A stretch of 37,759 nucleotides of DNA from Sulfurovum sp. GTDB taxonomy: Bacteria > Campylobacterota > Campylobacteria > Campylobacterales > Sulfurovaceae. This document shows, in pieces, positions 3,025-33,963 of the stretch (within the stretch, counting starts at the first letter, position 1; every line of letters starts with the position of its first letter). Made by a program: the position numbers and the translations under genes. Below the pieces are notes generated by a model. It did no database searches. It had not been told where the DNA came from and saw only the letters and a list, made by a program, of their open reading frames with translations. The stretch is from contig DYNJ01000004.1 of NCBI GenBank assembly GCA_020721085.1, positions 1-37,759 of the forward strand, read 5' to 3'.

Positions 3025-3468
3025 ATGATTAAAAAAATCAAATACCTTGGGGCTGTTGCGGCGCTCTCTTCTGCTTTATTGATGACGGGATGTACGCCGG
3101 AAGAGCAGGCTTTGGCAACAGGCGCAATAGTAGGAGCTACAGCAGGCGCTGCGATGGCTTCTGCTTACAGTTATCCATACTATTATGACAGACCATATTA
3201 TTATTATGGCGGCAGGTATTATTACGGCGGATATTATCGCGACGGATATTACTTTTATAATGGTCGTCGATACTATAATGGACACTATTACACCAACAAC
3301 TATCGCTACTATAATGGGCGAAGATACAACGCATATGACGGGCGGTATGGCTACTATAAAAACAGACACAGTTATGAAAGTCGCCATAAATACAATTCAA
3401 GAAACTATGACAGATCAAGAAATTACGATAGATCATATCAGCATGACAGGCATAGATACTATCGTTAG
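3025..3468 (+). CDS. Tyr/Gly/Arg-rich putative lipoprotein
   Basis: Lipobox LLMTGC; glycine-zipper-like GAIVGATAGAAMA; then repeated YYYGGRYYYGGYYRDG segments. Confidence 0.75.
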   Translation: MIKKIKYLGAVAALSSALLMTGCTPEEQALATGAIVGATAGAAMASAYSYPYYYDRPYYYYGGRYYYGGYYRDGYYFYNGRRYYNGHYYTNNYRYYNGRRYNAYDGRYGYYKNRHSYESRHKYNSRNYDRSRNYDRSYQHDRHRYYR

Positions 3469-3485
3469 AAGCGATATACAGTGTC

Positions 3486-22864: not shown

Positions 22865-23308
22865 ATGGATGCGCAATTGATAGAGCATTTGATGGAGCCC
22901 AAAAATTATGGCTCTATGAGCGATGCCGACAGTGAAGGGATAGGTAAAAATCCGCTCAATGGCGAAAAGGTCGCCATTTATCTGCGTGTATCAGAGCAAG
23001 ACGGCGTACCGATCATCCAAGACATTCGCTTCCAAGCGATCGGCTGCACTACCACAGTGGTCGCAGGCTCTATGATCACACAAGAGGCGAAAGGATTAGA
23101 TTTCAAAAAGGCAGATGAACTTGTAAATACTACGATGCAATTTTTGGAGCAGATATCGCCATCTGATGCTGTATGTACAGAGATGGTCGCTATTGCGCTT
23201 AAAGCATCCATGGATACCTATCGGCTCAGAAAGGGTGATCCGGATCACCCTGCTGTTACCTATCAGGTTCAGCACAGTTGCACACTAAAAGAAGGAGAGA
23301 CAGAGTGA
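22865..23308 (+). CDS. NifU/IscU-like iron-sulfur scaffold-family protein (atypical)
   Basis: GIGKNPLNGEKVAIYL, FQAIGCTTTVVAGSMIT, SDAVCTEMVAIALKAS. Confidence 0.85.
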   Translation: MDAQLIEHLMEPKNYGSMSDADSEGIGKNPLNGEKVAIYLRVSEQDGVPIIQDIRFQAIGCTTTVVAGSMITQEAKGLDFKKADELVNTTMQFLEQISPSDAVCTEMVAIALKASMDTYRLRKGDPDHPAVTYQVQHSCTLKEGETE

Positions 23309-24132
23309 AGACGCTAGCTATAAAAATACACGAGGCATGGCTTGTTACCTTGATGGCAGGACTGATGAGCAGCACACAAAGCAAGCATATCCTTTTTGAT
23401 TTTGCAGATATCTTGTTTAGGCATTTTAGATGGATTGAAGCAGAGATGGTAAAAGCCGGAGAATCGTATGATTATGACCGAGATATGATCCCGATACAAG
23501 TAGATAAACTTAGTATAATATTGAATAATATCATAATGCGTTTAAATCAGATCGATTTACAGATTATCGGTATCAAAAGAGAGCTTTCAAACCGTATGAG
23601 CAGTGATCTAAGCTATATGAGAGAGATGATTGCTCATCTATCTGATGAGGAGGTGCATGCTTTTCATGCCAAGAGAAAGCTGGAGTATATCCCGCTTAGC
23701 GAAGAGGCAACTGATGCTTTGACGCTTTTTTTGTTTGAGGAGAGCAGCAAGGAGTATGAGCTGATCATGATCTACAACTATCTCAATGCGCACAGCAGCG
23801 ATCTGTATTTAAGCCGTGTATTTCAGGATCTGGTGGATGAGAGTCTCTTTCATCTCAAACAATTTGGCGACATGATGGCAAAAATGGGGATTCTCGGAGT
23901 ACCAAAAATGGTGCATAAAGAGCTTTATCAATCCATTAAAATAGAGGCATTTTTGCTAGCCGGCATAGATGAAGAGATCGCTGCCAAGGAGGAGTGCCGC
24001 AAGCTTTCTGAAGCAGTTGCCTCAAACTCAAAAGAGCTGGCAAAATTTTTTGATTTTATTAACAACCAGGAGAGTTATCACATCGTTTTGATGCAAGATG
24101 CACTGGCATATTGGAGAAGCAAAAATGGCTAA
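23305..24132 (+). CDS. putative ferritin-like (possibly two-domain) iron-binding protein
   Basis: GTG start at 23305 after GAAGGAGA, overlapping upstream stop; all-helical with EEVHAFH, DESLFH and QESYH segments. Confidence 0.5.
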   Translation: MKTLAIKIHEAWLVTLMAGLMSSTQSKHILFDFADILFRHFRWIEAEMVKAGESYDYDRDMIPIQVDKLSIILNNIIMRLNQIDLQIIGIKRELSNRMSSDLSYMREMIAHLSDEEVHAFHAKRKLEYIPLSEEATDALTLFLFEESSKEYELIMIYNYLNAHSSDLYLSRVFQDLVDESLFHLKQFGDMMAKMGILGVPKMVHKELYQSIKIEAFLLAGIDEEIAAKEECRKLSEAVASNSKELAKFFDFINNQESYHIVLMQDALAYWRSKNG

Positions 24133-24955
24133 ACACTACACCTCGATGATCTCATCAGTTTTTGGCAACTTTGCAAAAATGGCGTTTCCTGCACCTTTGC
24201 AGCATTTCGTCAATACCAGCTATGTGGCTTTGATGGGACTGGATATGAGTGAGTTCAAACATCCCAAGGAGTACAAGACACTCAATGCGCTCTTTACTAG
24301 ATCGCTTGAAAAAGAGCGCAGTTTTGACGGCAGCGAGGATGTAGTCATCTCTCCTGCGGATTCACTGGTGACTGATCTTGGCACGATCAAAGATAAGACG
24401 GCATATCAGATCAAAGGGATGGCTTATCGTCTCGATGAGTTGCTTGGAGGCGATTATAAAGGTTCAGCGCAAGAGCTGGAAGGAGGACGGTATATCAATC
24501 TCTACCTCTCTCCCAAGGACTATCATCGATATCATATCCCTATGGATCTCACAGTCAAGAGTCTGACGCATATTCCCGGTAAACTTTATCCTGTCAATAT
24601 GCCTCTTTTGAAGCGCAAACCAAATCTTTTTATTGAAAACGAAAGAGTAGTGATAGAATGTGCAGATACCTATGGCAGATTACATTTTCTGGTCCTGGTC
24701 GGTGCGCTCAATGTCGGCAAAATGGCTGTGACCTTTGAGGATGCTATCAGGACAAACAGCGAAGCCAATGTGTCAAAACACTACACATATAATAATCTGA
24801 GTTGCAAAAAAGGGGAGCTTTTCGGCTGGTTTGAGATGGGATCGACTATTTTACTCTTCAGCCAAAAAGATGCTGTAGCTCTTGGTGTTTCACTGGGTCA
24901 AAAAGTACGATTTGGAGATCAGATCGCCAAATTGCAAATACCGCCTAATCAATAA
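24125..24955 (+). CDS. psd: phosphatidylserine decarboxylase proenzyme
   Basis: SPADSLVTDLGTI, YHRYHIPMD, FEMGSTILLFSQ (GST cleavage motif). Confidence 0.93.
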   Translation: MAKHYTSMISSVFGNFAKMAFPAPLQHFVNTSYVALMGLDMSEFKHPKEYKTLNALFTRSLEKERSFDGSEDVVISPADSLVTDLGTIKDKTAYQIKGMAYRLDELLGGDYKGSAQELEGGRYINLYLSPKDYHRYHIPMDLTVKSLTHIPGKLYPVNMPLLKRKPNLFIENERVVIECADTYGRLHFLVLVGALNVGKMAVTFEDAIRTNSEANVSKHYTYNNLSCKKGELFGWFEMGSTILLFSQKDAVALGVSLGQKVRFGDQIAKLQIPPNQ

Positions 24956-24974
24956 ACTGCCGCAAGGGGTCAAA

Positions 24975-25892
24975 ATGGTCATCAAAGAGATACAAGAGTA
25001 TGGTGAGATACGTACAAAAGCTAGAGCATATCTGTGTTATTTGCTCAAACAAAACCTCCCAAGCAGACTTCCGAATATCGCATTGGAAGATATACTTTCT
25101 GCTCTTAAAAAAACAAGTGAAGAGATCCAGGTATTTGATGCGATCTATATCCTGGATCCAAGCGGACGGCAGATCACAAATACAGTGAGCGTCAATCCGC
25201 ACGATGCCAGAAAAGGGATGGGAGAAAATCGAAACGGACGCGCTTACTACTACCGCGTCATCAAAGAAAACAGATGCGTGCTGACAGATCCCTATCCGTC
25301 TTTGTCTAGCAATAATCTCGTGGTAACCGCCTCATATCCAATTTACAATGAACGAAATGAGATGATATATATTGTTTGTCTGGATATCTCGCTTGAAAAT
25401 ATCCTTCGTCTTGTGCATCCTACCTCGATAGATTCTATCTTCGGCAAAGTCAGCAAATATGTCTATGCGGCATTTTCGTTCGCCCTTGCTGCGGTAGCGA
25501 TGCTTCTATTTGTGCAGGGAATCAGCCATTTTTTGAAACACGGACTATTTTTTACAGAAATAAGTATCAAGGATATGTTTGAATCAACGATACTTTTGAC
25601 ACTCTCTTTGGCGATCTTCGACCTTGTCAAGGCGATTTTCGAAGAGGAGGTATTGGGAAACCGCAAAAAAAATGATTCCGACGAGACTCACAAAACTATG
25701 GTGCGTTTCATGGGATCTATCATTATTGCACTCTCTATCGAGGCGCTGATGCTGGTGTTCAAATTTGCCATCACCGATCCTAGCAAACTGCTGTATGCCG
25801 TCTATCTCATTGGAGGTATTACGGCGCTAATCATCGGATTGTCTGTCTATCTCAGAGCTATCAATAGCAATTCTGATAAACAAGACGGGTGA
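24975..25892 (+). CDS. PDC/Cache-like sensor domain membrane protein
   Basis: FDAIYILDPSGRQITNTVS...GRAYYYRVIKENRCVLTDPYPSLSSNNLVVTASYPIYN followed by several TM helices. Confidence 0.75.
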   Translation: MVIKEIQEYGEIRTKARAYLCYLLKQNLPSRLPNIALEDILSALKKTSEEIQVFDAIYILDPSGRQITNTVSVNPHDARKGMGENRNGRAYYYRVIKENRCVLTDPYPSLSSNNLVVTASYPIYNERNEMIYIVCLDISLENILRLVHPTSIDSIFGKVSKYVYAAFSFALAAVAMLLFVQGISHFLKHGLFFTEISIKDMFESTILLTLSLAIFDLVKAIFEEEVLGNRKKNDSDETHKTMVRFMGSIIIALSIEALMLVFKFAITDPSKLLYAVYLIGGITALIIGLSVYLRAINSNSDKQDG

Positions 25893-26512
25893 TGAGTAAA
25901 GAGCTTATCATCTTTGATATGGATGGGACACTGGTCGATAGTTCTGTGACTATCTCCAATGCGATCAATCATGTCCGCTCCAATCTGTCATTGCCACAAA
26001 TGGATCATGATCATATTATTGCAAAAATCAACGATCATACTATTGTCCCAGCCCGATATTTTTATGAAGCGGATCGCTTTGAGCCATATCATGAAGCTTT
26101 GTTTTCACAGTATTATACACTCCACCACGCCAAAGAGTTGATGCTCTATGAAGGTATCGGCGGGTTGTTGGAGGATTTGAAAACCAATGGATTCAAGCTC
26201 GCGGTTGCTACCAATGCCTACCGCAGATCCACTATAGAATCGCTGAAGCATCTTGATATTTATGATCTGTTTGATACTATCGCCTGTGCCGATGATGTGA
26301 GCAGAGGCAAGCCGTCTCCGGACATGCTGTTTAAAATTTTGGATGAGCTTGAAATTGTTGCCAATGATGCGTTTTTCGTAGGAGATGGCTCTCGCGATCA
26401 GATGGCATCCCAGAAGGCCTCGATCGAGTATCTGATGGTGAATTGGGGCTTTAGTGAGTATGAGGATGCGCTGCACAGTGTCGATGCATTGAGGCAGGTG
26501 TTATTTATTTAA
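25892..26512 (+). CDS. HAD-superfamily hydrolase (phosphoglycolate-phosphatase-like)
   Basis: LIIFDMDGTLVDSS, AVATNAYRRST, FFVGDGSRDQMASQKA. Confidence 0.9.
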   Translation: MSKELIIFDMDGTLVDSSVTISNAINHVRSNLSLPQMDHDHIIAKINDHTIVPARYFYEADRFEPYHEALFSQYYTLHHAKELMLYEGIGGLLEDLKTNGFKLAVATNAYRRSTIESLKHLDIYDLFDTIACADDVSRGKPSPDMLFKILDELEIVANDAFFVGDGSRDQMASQKASIEYLMVNWGFSEYEDALHSVDALRQVLFI

Positions 26513-26563
26513 AGCGTAAATTTGGTATCGTTGTTGATTGAATCGGCGTTAGAAAGAGTTGTG

Positions 26564-27289
26564 ATGAAAAAGGTATTTTTTTTTATGATCATCTCTATGG
26601 AGGTTTTTGCAATCACTCCGGACAAGATTATCAAAAATGTTGAGCACAATCTCCAAAGCAATAATAGCTATTCTCAAATCACGATGACCGTCACAACGGC
26701 ACGGGGGGAAAGAATGATGAAAATGGAGAGTTGGAATAGAGGGCATGAGAAGAGTTTTATCAAAGTACTTTACCCCAAGCAAGACCGCGGGATCACATTT
26801 TTGAAAATCGATACGACAATGTGGCAGTATGTCCCCAAAATAGAAAAGATGATCAAAATCCCAAGTTCTATGATGATGCAAAGTTGGATGGGAAGCGATT
26901 TTACCAACGATGATATGGCAAAGGAGAGCTCCATCGTTGATGATTATGATCCTGTATTGAGCTTAGAAGATGCCCATAAATATACATTGACCCTGCACCC
27001 AAAAGAAAATGCTGCGGTTGTATGGGGCAGGATCACTATAGAAGTAGAAAAAGTTCATTTTATACCGCTCAAAGCGATCTATTATGATGAGGATGGCATC
27101 CGGCAACGCATTCTGTACTACAGCAATATCAAAGTATTTGGAAGTCGTCATTTGCCTACCGTGATGACATTGGTTCCTATAAATAAAAAAAACAATAAGA
27201 CAGTCGTGCGTATGGACAAGGTAGATTTTGATGCACCGATCGATGATGAGCGCTTTACCAAAAATGCACTGATCAGATACAGCCAATGA
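26564..27289 (+). CDS. outer-membrane lipoprotein-sorting-like (LolA-fold) periplasmic protein
   Basis: Signal peptide; MWQYVPKIEKMIKIPSSMMMQSWMGSDFTNDDMAKE signature. Confidence 0.88.
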   Translation: MKKVFFFMIISMEVFAITPDKIIKNVEHNLQSNNSYSQITMTVTTARGERMMKMESWNRGHEKSFIKVLYPKQDRGITFLKIDTTMWQYVPKIEKMIKIPSSMMMQSWMGSDFTNDDMAKESSIVDDYDPVLSLEDAHKYTLTLHPKENAAVVWGRITIEVEKVHFIPLKAIYYDEDGIRQRILYYSNIKVFGSRHLPTVMTLVPINKKNNKTVVRMDKVDFDAPIDDERFTKNALIRYSQ

Positions 27290-28527
27290 TACTTTTGAAG
27301 ATGGCGTTTCGGGAACTGCTGATCCATAAAAAGCGTTCCGTCATCACTGTTTTACTGTGTGCTTTCTCGACAGCTCTTTTTATCTTTGTCAATGCGCTCA
27401 ATGACGGAAGCCATAAACAGCTGATCCGCTCAAGTGCTGAAACCTATCCCGGCTATATGCAGCTCACCGGTCGTGCGTTTGAAGATAATCCCAATTATGA
27501 CAATCTTATTTTTGATACACCCCGCATTCAAAATATACTCAAAGATCAAAAATGGATCAGTGCTTTCTCGGCGCGTTTTGAATCATACGCCCTCTATGCC
27601 ACGGATGAGCAGTCGATAGGAGGGATGTTTACCGCTATTGAGCCCGAAAGCGAGGCAGAAGTATCTCGTCTGAAGCGCTCTTTGGTCTCAGGAGAGTATT
27701 TGAGCAGCAAGGATACCAATGCGCTGTATCTGGGGGTAGAGTTCGCCAAGCGTCTCAAAGTAAAAGTGGGAGATGCTTTGTCGTTTATCTCTACAGGTGC
27801 AGATTACTCCTTTGCGGCGGATCATCTGATCGTCAAGGGGTTGTTCAAAACTAAGCTTTATGAGTTTGACAACAGTGCAGCTTTTGTTAATAAATCATAT
27901 TTTGACGAGGTGATGCACAGCACCGATAGCGCTACGCATATCATCATCACTCCGGCTGAAATTTCTCAAATTGATGCCGTCACTCAAAGGTTACAAAAAG
28001 TAGTTGGCGGCGAGATAGAGGTAAAAAATTATAAAATGATTCTTGAAGATTTGGTTTTGGCGATGAAGGTAGATCAAATATTTAGCTATATCACGCTTGC
28101 AATCTTCTTTGTAGTTATTTTCTTTGTCGTAGCCATCTTTGCGTTTCTCTCCGTCTATGCCCGTATCCGTCAGATAGGAGTGCTGCGGGCAATAGGGACG
28201 ACACCCGGTCAAGTGATGCAGTTGTTGTTGCTTGAGGCGCTTATTTTGGGGATCATCGGTGTCGGTATAGGTGGGGCAGCGAGCGCTCATGCGACGCACT
28301 ATTACGAAGAACATCCTATCTCATTCGGTTTCTGGGGGGATGTCGAGATCGAGGAGTATTATAAACAGTACAATATGGTTGCCGAGGTTACCATCCCGAC
28401 CCAATACAATCCGCCCAAGATCGCAGTCGAAATGCTGATCATGCTTATGCTCAATCTTGCAAGTGTGCTTTATCCGATGATCATACTCCGCCGTTTTACT
28501 CCGATAGAGGCAATGCGACATGTTTAG
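27286..28527 (+). CDS. ABC transporter permease (FtsX/LolC/MacB type)
   Basis: RSVITVLLCAFSTALF; RIRQIGVLRAIGTTPGQVMQLLLLEALILGIIG; ATGA overlap. Confidence 0.92.
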   Translation: MILLKMAFRELLIHKKRSVITVLLCAFSTALFIFVNALNDGSHKQLIRSSAETYPGYMQLTGRAFEDNPNYDNLIFDTPRIQNILKDQKWISAFSARFESYALYATDEQSIGGMFTAIEPESEAEVSRLKRSLVSGEYLSSKDTNALYLGVEFAKRLKVKVGDALSFISTGADYSFAADHLIVKGLFKTKLYEFDNSAAFVNKSYFDEVMHSTDSATHIIITPAEISQIDAVTQRLQKVVGGEIEVKNYKMILEDLVLAMKVDQIFSYITLAIFFVVIFFVVAIFAFLSVYARIRQIGVLRAIGTTPGQVMQLLLLEALILGIIGVGIGGAASAHATHYYEEHPISFGFWGDVEIEEYYKQYNMVAEVTIPTQYNPPKIAVEMLIMLMLNLASVLYPMIILRRFTPIEAMRHV

Positions 28528-29758
28528 AGACAGTGCTTTGTATCTCAAAATGGCGTTGCTTCATATCGTTCGACACAAGAGCCGTGCCGTTTTGATCTCT
28601 TTAATGATCGCTCTTTCACTTGTCGGATTGTTGCTGATGGAGGGGATGTATGAGGGGATGATGGCGCAGGTCACCCAAAATATGATTAAAACCGGCAGCG
28701 GAACTCTGCTGATCCAGCACAAAGAGTTTCGGGCCGAGAACAATATCAAATTTCAGATTATCGAACCGCAAAAGATAGCTTCGGTACTGGATATACAAGA
28801 AGGAGTACGCAGCTATGTGATGCGTGTGAGCCAGCACGGTCTGATCGCCACGGCAGGCTATTCACGGGGAGCCGACATCATAGGTATAGATTTGTTACGC
28901 GAAGCATCACATGCGCATCTGGATCAGTTTATCATCAAAGGAAATTATAGTTTGGGCAAGCGACAAGAGGGCGCCATTATTGGCTACCGTCTAGCCCGTA
29001 AACTCAAGACTGATGTTGGCAAAAAAGTGGTTATCACGATGCAAGACAGAGACAACGAGGTGGTCTCTGCCGCCCTTAAAATTGAGGGGATTATCAAGAC
29101 TAACAATATGGCGATTGACGGCAACGGAGTGCTGGCGGACATAGGAAAACTGCGTGCTTTGACAGGTATGCAGGGCGCCACCGAGATCGCCGTACTGCTG
29201 GAAGATCAAGATGCAGACATGAAAGTCAAGCAACAGATAGATGCACAGCTGAATGATCGCAATATTGCCGTATATTCCTACAAAGAGCTTTATCCGTCTC
29301 TGCATGAAGGAGAGGTCATGATGCAGACCTACAACTATATCAGTGCTGCTTTTATTTTTACGGTTGCATCATTGGGCATTTTTGGTGTTGTGCTAGTCTC
29401 GGTACTCGAGCGGGTACGGGAGTTTGGGATTATGATGGCGATCGGGACACAATTTCGAGATATTGTTCGTTTGATTGTTTTTGAGTCGATGATCATTACG
29501 ATGAGCGGTTATATTGCAGGAGCACTGATAGGCGGCGGGCTACTGTGGTATTTTAAAGAGTATGGATTGGATCTATCGGGATTCAGTGATGCTTTTGCGA
29601 TTTTTGGAATGGATTCAAGCATCCATGCAATCCTCAAAACAGAATATTTCATCAGTGCATTTTTGGGCGTATTTTTATCAACTTTATTAGCAACCGCTAT
29701 CCCTATACACACACTCAAAAGACGCAATCCTATCCAATCCATCAACGAGCAGGCATAA
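28520..29758 (+). CDS. ABC transporter permease (FtsX/LolE/MacB type)
   Basis: VRHKSRAVLISLMIALS; RVREFGIMMAIGTQFRDIVRLIVFES; overlaps upstream CDS. Confidence 0.92.
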   Translation: MFRDSALYLKMALLHIVRHKSRAVLISLMIALSLVGLLLMEGMYEGMMAQVTQNMIKTGSGTLLIQHKEFRAENNIKFQIIEPQKIASVLDIQEGVRSYVMRVSQHGLIATAGYSRGADIIGIDLLREASHAHLDQFIIKGNYSLGKRQEGAIIGYRLARKLKTDVGKKVVITMQDRDNEVVSAALKIEGIIKTNNMAIDGNGVLADIGKLRALTGMQGATEIAVLLEDQDADMKVKQQIDAQLNDRNIAVYSYKELYPSLHEGEVMMQTYNYISAAFIFTVASLGIFGVVLVSVLERVREFGIMMAIGTQFRDIVRLIVFESMIITMSGYIAGALIGGGLLWYFKEYGLDLSGFSDAFAIFGMDSSIHAILKTEYFISAFLGVFLSTLLATAIPIHTLKRRNPIQSINEQA

Positions 29759-30447
29759 TGAAATTTTTAACCGTACGAAATCTAAAAAAAGTGTTTCACA
29801 AAGGAAGCGAAAGCCAAACCAATGCGCTTGATGGCATCGATCTTGAGATCAACAAAGAGGAGTTTATCGTCATCTCGGGTCCCAGCGGAAGCGGCAAAAC
29901 AACCCTGCTTAACATCATCGGCGGACTTGACAGTCCCAGCGAAGGAGGTGTGGATCTTGAGGGGACTCTGATCACAGAGCTTAGCGAAAATGATCTGGCG
30001 CTGTTTCGACGCAAAAACATCGGATTTGTCTTCCAGGCCTACAATCTCATCCCTGTCCTTACGGCAAAAGAGAATATCTCATATGTGATGCGTTTGCTCG
30101 GATGTCCCAAAAGCGTGTATGATGCACGGACGCTGGAGGTTGCAAGGGAGCTTGATATAGACAGATATCTTGATAAATTTCCAGACCATCTCAGCGGCGG
30201 TCAGCAGCAGCGTATCGCAGTGGCGCGTGCCGTGGCAAGCAAGCCCAAACTCATCCTTGCTGATGAGCCGACTGCCAATCTGGATTCTAAAAATGCAGAA
30301 AAACTGATGGAGCTGATGCGCCGTCTCAATGAAGAGGAGAAGGTGACTATCATCTTCTCCTCTCATGATCCCTTGGTCATCAAGCAGGCACGCCGTTCCA
30401 TTGTGTTGAGAGACGGTAAAATCATCGAGGATGTTGTCTGTCCATGA
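29758..30447 (+). CDS. ABC transporter ATP-binding protein (LolD/MacB type)
   Basis: GPSGSGKTTLLNIIGG, LSGGQQQRIAVARA, LILADEPTANLDS. Confidence 0.95.
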   Translation: MKFLTVRNLKKVFHKGSESQTNALDGIDLEINKEEFIVISGPSGSGKTTLLNIIGGLDSPSEGGVDLEGTLITELSENDLALFRRKNIGFVFQAYNLIPVLTAKENISYVMRLLGCPKSVYDARTLEVARELDIDRYLDKFPDHLSGGQQQRIAVARAVASKPKLILADEPTANLDSKNAEKLMELMRRLNEEEKVTIIFSSHDPLVIKQARRSIVLRDGKIIEDVVCP

Positions 30448-31565
30448 TAAGAGTGTTATTGACAGTGGCGTTTTTTGTGTTGCCTGTGTGGAGCACGGAG
30501 TTTGAGACAACCTTTGAGAACAGTAATTTTATTCTTTCTATGCCGATAGACTGGACCGGTGAACATAAATTTTTAGATTACAACCGTTTGAGGATGAACG
30601 AGCATATTCGCGATGACAACTGGTTTGCAGTCGCGATTTTGGATATCGAAAATTATTTGGGACACGATATCGTCAATAGCGCTGCATTTGAAGCTGCAAG
30701 CTCGGTGCATTCTGATACACCATTTGTGACACAAACAGAACCTTATGATTATCAAGATGGACAAATCTATGCCCAGCTTTACCGTTTTTATGCCGGATAT
30801 GCCGACGAGAAGCACCGTATCAGCCTCGGACTGCAAAAGATAAGTTTCGGTGTCGGCCGTATCTGGAACCCTACCGATCTGTTCAATCCAAAAAATCCGC
30901 TCGCACTTGAGCCGGATGAGGTGTATGGGGTGTTTTCGACAATATATACCTATTCGCCAAACAGCCTAAGTCAGATCAATGCTATTGTTGCACAGCGCGC
31001 AGATGAGAGTTTCAAATACGCAGGGCGCGCCAAAAGTTATATTGGTTTTGCCGATGTGGCCATAAATACAGTTATCGCAGATGATGTCACTATGATCGGC
31101 TATGAACTCGAAGGAGAACTTGGCAGTACCGGGATTGCTCTCAGATCCGAAGGTGGATGGTTTTATGACAAAACAGTACAAGAAGAGATTTTTCAAGGGC
31201 TGATCGGCGCTGATTATGCATTTAAAAACTCTCTTGTACTCATGGGTGAGTGGCTACACACCTCAAAAGTATTTGACAAATACGAAATACTCAACACTCC
31301 TCAACGAGCCAAAAATTATCTTGTACAATCTCATGATTATGTAGCTCTTGGTGCCGGATATGAGTTTGATACACTCCTTTATGGTATGATTTCCTCTATC
31401 GTCAGCATAGATGATAACAGTTTTTATATAACACCTTCTTTGAGGTATTCACTCGCTGATGACAGAATGCTTGTGCTGGGTGCGATGCTCTATGACGGCG
31501 AAACCGGTAGTGAATTTGGTGATTATGGGCAAACATATTATGTTAATTTAAAAGTGACATTTTGA
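30444..31565 (+). CDS. predicted outer-membrane beta-barrel protein
   Basis: Signal peptide; GLQKISFGVGRIWNPTDLFNPKNP; alternating strands; C-terminal ...YYVNLKVTF ending in Phe. Confidence 0.72.
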   Translation: MIRVLLTVAFFVLPVWSTEFETTFENSNFILSMPIDWTGEHKFLDYNRLRMNEHIRDDNWFAVAILDIENYLGHDIVNSAAFEAASSVHSDTPFVTQTEPYDYQDGQIYAQLYRFYAGYADEKHRISLGLQKISFGVGRIWNPTDLFNPKNPLALEPDEVYGVFSTIYTYSPNSLSQINAIVAQRADESFKYAGRAKSYIGFADVAINTVIADDVTMIGYELEGELGSTGIALRSEGGWFYDKTVQEEIFQGLIGADYAFKNSLVLMGEWLHTSKVFDKYEILNTPQRAKNYLVQSHDYVALGAGYEFDTLLYGMISSIVSIDDNSFYITPSLRYSLADDRMLVLGAMLYDGETGSEFGDYGQTYYVNLKVTF

Positions 31566-32961: not shown

Positions 32962-33963
32962 TTATTCGTCAGAGGGAGCAAAAAGTGAATATTCTTTTTT
33001 TATATTATTTAATATTGACTTATCAAGCGTATAGACAAAAGCATAATTAAAGTGTGCTGATTTGAGTATCTTTCTGACCTCATCTTCGCTCTCAAACCAC
33101 ATCGGTCGGTCTAGGTTTTCGACCTTGGTTTTGGGTGGTGTCAATACGATACTTTTGACCCAGCTGTTTTGATATTTGATGTATTCTCTCGCTTTGTTTA
33201 TGTCTGTAAGATTGTCAGTGAAAATGACGACTTTGTCGCTTTTGGAAGACTGGGTAGTCTTGAGTTCGCCATCTATAAAGACAGGTATAAACTGTTTGGT
33301 ATATCTGATACGGTCGATCGAGTAGGGCTGATTATGAGTTTCGCAAAAATCAACCACTCTAAGCAGATGATCAAAATGAAAAGGAATCAACTCTTTGTTT
33401 TGATAGACATAACCTCCCACCTTGAAGGTTGTCCTAAATAATGTATCAGAGATGATATAACCCTCATTGATATCGCTTTTGAGGAGTTTGACATCAGGCT
33501 TGATCTGCTTCATCAGATCTTTATCTGTCCCTACAAAAAGTTTCTGCGAGGAGTTGAGGATTTGCTCGAAAGCCTTTTTCCAATCTTCGGCGATGAACAC
33601 GATAGCGCCTTTTTGGAGAATGATCATCTTGAGCAGACTGTTTTCATGTTCATTTAGAAGAAAAAACTCTATCTCTTTGGCGAGGATGACATATCGCAAA
33701 AGCCTGAATGCCGCATCTTCGATAGAGCCAACCTGGATCCAAGCGATCTCTTGGTCGCTGGGGATGATGTGTTCATCGTCATAGATGATGGCATAAGCGC
33801 CGTTTGCCAATGCGCTTTTGATCTCTTCAGGATCAGATGAGATGAAAAGATCGCCGTGTTCGACTTTGGAGGGAAATACAGTCGCTCCCTCAATGGATTG
33901 TATGGTTGGCGTGCTCTTGAGCATGCCGTCAGTCAAGTTGAGTAGTGCATCGATAGTCATCAA
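32962..33963 (-). CDS. MurE/MurF-like (Mur ligase-related) protein lacking a recognisable P-loop
   Basis: GATVFPSKVEHGDLFISSDPEEIKSALANGAYAIIYDDE resembles Mur ligase N-domains; no GxxGKT/S. Confidence 0.5.
   Translation of the reverse strand: MMTIDALLNLTDGMLKSTPTIQSIEGATVFPSKVEHGDLFISSDPEEIKSALANGAYAIIYDDEHIIPSDQEIAWIQVGSIEDAAFRLLRYVILAKEIEFFLLNEHENSLLKMIILQKGAIVFIAEDWKKAFEQILNSSQKLFVGTDKDLMKQIKPDVKLLKSDINEGYIISDTLFRTTFKVGGYVYQNKELIPFHFDHLLRVVDFCETHNQPYSIDRIRYTKQFIPVFIDGELKTTQSSKSDKVVIFTDNLTDINKAREYIKYQNSWVKSIVLTPPKTKVENLDRPMWFESEDEVRKILKSAHFNYAFVYTLDKSILNNIKKEYSLFAPSDE

Follow-up and report, generated by a model that had tools for sequence, protein, structure and literature searches.

The window analysed here, a 37,759-nucleotide stretch from a Sulfurovum sp. 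draft genome (1.58 Mb, 147 contigs, 87% complete), carries a cassette of five genes, all on the same strand, that encode a LolA-fold carrier, two FtsX-type permeases (P1 and P2), an ABC ATPase and a predicted outer-membrane barrel. Both the five-gene layout at 26564-31565 and the overlaps of 1-8 nt between consecutive genes that had been proposed in the initial annotation were confirmed, the overlaps measuring 4 nt (carrier/P1), 8 nt (P1/P2), 1 nt (P2/ATPase) and 4 nt (ATPase/barrel). For the carrier gene, an alternative longer TTG start is found at 26522. The features of the locus are as follows:

24098-26512, plus strand: genes for a phosphatidylserine decarboxylase, a Cache-domain membrane protein and a HAD hydrolase, immediately upstream of the cassette
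26564-27289, plus strand: LolA-like carrier (PF17131), 241 aa, ATG start
26819-26914, plus strand: carrier region of highest conservation, MWQYxPKIExxIKIPxSMMxQxWMGSDxxNDD, almost unchanged across 25 cassette carriers
27286-28527, plus strand: P1, FtsX-type permease, 413 aa
27799-27822, plus strand: ADYSFAAD segment of P1, conserved among P1 proteins
28520-29758, plus strand: P2, FtsX-type permease, LolE/LolF/MacB-like, 412 aa
29758-30447, plus strand: ATPase of the LolD/FtsE/MacB class, 229 aa
30444-31565, plus strand: 373 aa protein, predicted to form a porin-like outer-membrane barrel of 18 strands
30828-30929, plus strand: best-conserved segment of the barrel, GLQKISFGVGRIWNPTDLFNPKNPLALEPDE and the subsequent residues, in the long loop that connects strand 5 to strand 6

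The three upstream genes run in the same direction as the cassette and end 51 nt before the carrier gene. They may be co-transcribed with it; they are not kept beside other cassette copies. The window holds several further features. An ORF of 284 aa without a match in Pfam or NCBIfam (23278-24132) overlaps the phosphatidylserine decarboxylase gene, and a 333 aa ORF without family match (32962-33963) adjoins the gene for methionyl-tRNA synthetase. At 586-2812, a ZorA-like protein of the MotA/ExbB type (384 aa) is followed by a ZorB-like OmpA-domain protein (356 aa), matching the Zorya ZorA and ZorB models with E-values of about 1e-18 and 1e-54, respectively. None of the genes next after this pair resembles ZorC, ZorD or ZorE, and the two proteins may form a stator pair with another role. 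A small lipoprotein-like ORF with the lipobox MTGCTPEEQ and an exceptionally high content of Tyr, Arg and Gly lies at 3026-3469.

The carrier matched PF17131 (LolA_like) at 158 bits and was assigned by Pfam to this family only, not to the LolA family PF03548 expected of a Lol member. Its closest solved structures (9tp6, 4z48, 3buu and 3bk5) are all LolA-fold proteins. The N-terminus resembles a signal peptide and is devoid of a lipobox, which favours a soluble carrier over a lipoprotein of the LolB type.

The inner-membrane components showed the features of type VII (MacB/LolCE/FtsX) ABC transporters, i.e. an FtsX-like C-terminal domain, a periplasmic core and an ABC ATPase. An FtsX domain was detected by Pfam in both P1 (52 bits) and P2 (65 bits), P2 additionally matched MacB_PCD, and LolF/LolE were the best profile matches of the two permeases. 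With 93 bits for P1 and 69 bits for P2, both stayed below the curated lolCE cut-off of 362 bits. The ATPase matched ABC_tran at 115 bits in Pfam and scored 203 bits against a curated LolD cut-off of 308, a threshold that is not decisive, given that every ATPase of this genome, even the likely housekeeping LolD, falls short of it and that an ATPase reaches it in just one of 14 control genomes. The ADYSFAAD segment of P1 sits at the position of a longer hairpin in the periplasmic domain of LolF, and by this sequence correspondence the region could match the LolA-binding Hook.

The last protein of the cassette had been annotated as an outer-membrane beta-barrel ending in Phe, an assignment supported by structure prediction; its C-terminus reads ...KVTF. 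With six sequences, AlphaFold2 gave a model of low confidence (pLDDT 64); an alignment of 54 sequences yielded an 18-strand barrel with a pLDDT of 90.8 and a pTM of 0.84. Foldseek related this model to porins, namely C. jejuni MOMP, Occ channels and AlgE, with a TM-score of about 0.6 and approximately 10% identity; like the 18-strand porins of the Occ/AlgE/MOMP type, it has 18 antiparallel strands, with strands 5 and 6 joined by a long loop. The most conserved stretch among the 54 barrels, GVGRIWNPTDLFNPKNPLALEPDE, falls into this loop by the AlphaFold2 strand assignment. In classical porins, the same position is occupied by the constriction loop L3. Judged from the model, the strand 5-6 loop of the cassette barrel may likewise line the pore. 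The window barrel had no match in Pfam or NCBIfam, none of the 54 cassette barrels matched DUF1302 in Pfam, and their profile similarity to a DUF1302-containing set was weak (84 columns, hhalign probability 30%). The barrel thus represents a previously undescribed family without a Pfam entry.

Conservation of the unit was evaluated by scanning GTDB genomes with the barrel alignment. The order carrier-P1-P2-ATPase-barrel was found in 62 of the 80 loci kept from other genomes, a recurrence far beyond chance. These loci were all found via the barrel and, with many drafts of the same genera, are not statistically independent. Where at least 4.5 kb of upstream sequence was available, the order was present in 58 of 64 loci, and departures from it were mostly due to cut contigs, inserted genes or an undetected carrier. 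Cassettes occur in Campylobacterota and in bacteria of Desulfobulbales type, with representatives in Sulfuricurvum, Sulfurimonas, Sulfurovum, Arcobacteraceae, Desulfobulbaceae and Desulfuromonadaceae. In the reverse test on 150 genomes of the order, relatives of P1 were found in seven and relatives of the barrel in six, and all six were shared; in the seventh P1 genome the contig stops inside P2. A Thiovulum genome has retained all components, with P1-P2-ATPase, carrier and barrel on three separate contigs. Together, these data indicate that the barrel is conserved with the ABC genes, a point on which the initial annotation had made its interpretation depend. In Sulfuricurvum sp. PC08-66, two P1 permeases are arranged in tandem and a third P1-like permease is located between ATPase and barrel.

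Given its Lol-like gene content, the cassette might simply be this genome's housekeeping Lol system, mistaken for something out of the ordinary. The same genome, however, contains a PF03548 LolA, SecA and a LolC/E-type (LolF) permease side by side on another contig (C101), and a LolD-like ATPase, likely the housekeeping LolD, that adjoins rpsB-tsf on a further contig (C5). The cassette is therefore additional to housekeeping Lol, as had been proposed on first reading. Its occurrence in just six or seven of the 150 genomes of the order also contradicts a housekeeping role, which we rejected as extremely improbable. A MacAB-like operon (C57) and an FtsEX-like pair (C66) are encoded elsewhere in the genome.

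The carrier family itself is more widespread, with PF17131 present in 44 of the 150 genomes. Out of 47 PF17131 loci, 29 lie beside an MMPL/RND pump and nine beside FtsX-type permeases, the other nine being unassigned mostly because of the flank limit of 1.5 kb. Next to the carrier, five of six MMPL loci with longer flanks encode an extra 389-492 aa protein that looks exported, and most of these proteins end in Phe. Four such carrier-adjacent proteins were scanned; three matched DUF1302, one of the three scoring just under the cut-off. A second ABC form consists of one permease, the carrier and a barrel (four loci: L053, L055, L059 and L061), and its barrels are homologous to that of the window with an hhalign probability of 99.7%, a figure raised by the presence of L053 in the query alignment as well. 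In the carrier tree, ABC-partnered and MMPL-partnered proteins formed separate clades with support of 100/99, the placement of L055 and L060 being less certain due to their very long branches. The carrier lineage thus goes with its engine, and we regard the cassette as the ABC-powered counterpart of the MMPL/RND-driven PF17131 loci. In two of the MMPL-driven loci (L052 and L054), genes resembling TetR-type regulators, identified by eye, adjoin in divergent orientation. Divergent TetR-type regulators are usual for inducible efflux pumps.

The neighbourhoods of the cassette loci bear on what it may transport. No genes for making or degrading a cargo were consistently linked to it. The genes upstream of the window's cassette, not being kept at other copies, were dismissed as a functional hint. 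So were the conserved flanking genes of other loci (leuA-like, glnA-like, phosphate transport and purH-like, as read from their sequences), as they reflect shared synteny. Most cassette-bearing organisms look like sulfur oxidisers or sulfate reducers; elemental sulfur as cargo was considered from taxonomy alone and set aside, the cassette being present in only six or seven of the 150 genomes of the order.

Genes for response regulators or histidine kinases were found at most four genes away in 15 of the 80 loci, in Campylobacterota as well as Deltaproteobacteria. In eight loci of Deltaproteobacteria type or from Sulfurimonas (L134, L139, L142, L091, L109, L115, L120 and L141), histidine kinase and response regulator genes adjoin the cassette and possibly regulate it. 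Such nearby regulators, together with the MacB-like core domain of P2 and the precedent of AmeABCD (PMC6394551), would fit a pump for drugs or toxic compounds that is induced by envelope stress and uses the barrel as a substitute for TolC. We consider this unlikely, since the cassette has neither a MacA-type adaptor nor a TolC-type channel, the genome has its separate MacAB-like operon, and two-component genes are not a general feature: most loci, including that of the window, have no regulator beside the cassette.

An accessory Lol system for a subset of lipoproteins, in which the barrel would replace LolB as a receptor or serve as a surface-display channel, would account for the LolF/LolE-like permeases and the LolA-fold carrier, and lipoproteins were considered a possible cargo by the authors who described the Borrelia BBJ23-29 cluster (PMC13078400). 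Yet the genome is already provided with a housekeeping LolA-LolF and a LolD-like ATPase, the carrier is of PF17131 rather than PF03548, and lipobox genes were not enriched beside the cassette (3/259 near it versus 7/345 further away), although this last comparison is weak evidence. As the MMPL sister loci moreover resemble a hydrophobe-efflux group, lipoprotein cargo is weakly disfavoured, and a lipoprotein-specific system appears to us a minor possibility.

Transport in the opposite direction, with the cassette moving lipids from the outer to the inner membrane in the manner of Mla, could be suspected from an Mla/Mce-like operon, recognised by gene pattern and not by profile search, that lies just downstream in some Sulfurovum loci. 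This operon is unconserved in other loci, and those type VII ABC transporters whose function is known either extract their cargo from the inner membrane or push it outward, so that we judge a retrograde system very improbable. Of the broader initial proposal, which envisaged a dedicated system for export or retrograde transport of lipids, lipoproteins or other hydrophobic cargo, the distinction from housekeeping Lol and the conserved barrel have thus held up, whereas the retrograde option is disfavoured and the lipoprotein option weakly so.

The reading that we favour, and hold to be probable, is that the cassette encodes a trans-envelope exporter, Lol-like in kind and dedicated to a hydrophobic cargo, either a lipid or a small lipophilic compound. 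Type VII ABC transporters have no pore and use ATP-driven movement to extract or push substrates on the periplasmic side of the membrane; LolCDE in this way extracts lipoproteins from the inner membrane and passes them to LolA, and YbbAP is proposed to do likewise for hydrophobic compounds (PMC12646458). By analogy, the ATP-driven permease-ATPase engine of the cassette would extract a hydrophobic molecule from the inner membrane, the hydrophobic half-barrel of the soluble LolA-fold protein would take it up and ferry it across the periplasm, and the carrier would then pass the molecule to the 18-strand porin-like barrel of the same cassette, for entry into or passage through the outer membrane. 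For the DUF1302 and DUF1329 proteins of P. putida, binding to each other has been predicted by co-folding (PMC10866462). We infer the outward direction, the hand-off from carrier to barrel and a lipid or hydrophobic small molecule as cargo, the cargo class being carried over from AmeABCD, YbbAP and related cases. Three findings speak against a hydrophobic exporter: genes that make or degrade a cargo are not consistently linked to the cassette, the barrel fold resembles ordinary porins and could form a channel for a polar cargo, and the link between the cassette barrels and DUF1302 is weak, as reflected in the low hhalign probability.

Beyond the Lpt, Lol and Mla routes, little is understood of the passage of lipids and highly hydrophobic molecules through periplasm and outer membrane. 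A compact and conserved five-gene unit in which every compartment is represented, along with its RND-driven counterparts in these bacteria, renders this question directly testable. More tentatively, as an idea slightly less likely than not, we suggest that these loci constitute a separate class of Gram-negative exporters composed of an engine, a LolA-fold shuttle and a dedicated barrel. The engine would be interchangeable (type VII ABC or MMPL/RND), the ABC version would end in the previously unrecognised 18-strand channel family, and lipids or hydrophobes would reach the cell surface by a route involving neither TolC nor LolB.

Compared with known systems, the cassette has, in common with LolCDE/LolF-LolA, type VII permeases from the LolCE superfamily, an ATPase resembling LolD and a soluble LolA-fold carrier, and it probably works like Lol up to the carrier. 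By the features examined it is not a Lol member: the permeases and the ATPase fall well short of the curated Lol cut-offs, the carrier belongs to another Pfam family, the cassette coexists with housekeeping Lol, and its route ends in a barrel, whereas that of Lol ends at LolB or at LolA itself. With MacAB-TolC it has in common the type VII ABC engine and, in P2, the MacB_PCD match, but there is no MacA adaptor in or beside the cassette and no TolC, and a shuttling carrier is presumed instead of a sealed conduit. In its proposed use of a type VII ABC transporter to draw hydrophobic compounds from the inner membrane, the cassette parallels YbbAP-TesA (PMC12646458), where the partner is a hydrolase and both carrier and barrel are missing.

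Among systems backed by experiments, the nearest is AmeABCD of Castellaniella defragrans, which comprises an RND pump of the HAE3 family, a DUF1329 protein, a COG4447 protein and a DUF1302 barrel, and whose deletion lowers monoterpene tolerance (PMC6394551). Like the cassette, it unites an inner-membrane engine, a periplasmic protein of the LolA superfamily and an outer-membrane barrel; the MMPL sister loci of the order, which combine PF17131 with MMPL and in several cases with a DUF1302 barrel, resemble it as well. Unlike the cassette with its ABC engine, AmeABCD is proton-driven, has a DUF1329 carrier and a DUF1302 barrel, and includes the extra component AmeC. In the open-access literature searched, the only ABC version found was the BBJ23-29 cluster of Borrelia, described in 2026 from prediction only (PMC13078400). 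There, too, a type VII ABC transporter, a LolA-like carrier and an outer-membrane barrel are clustered, and a non-polar cargo was proposed. While BBJ23-29 has a homodimeric single permease, an Omp85-family barrel and TPR proteins, the cassette described here combines two permeases with an 18-strand porin-like barrel, is devoid of TPR proteins and occupies a different host range.
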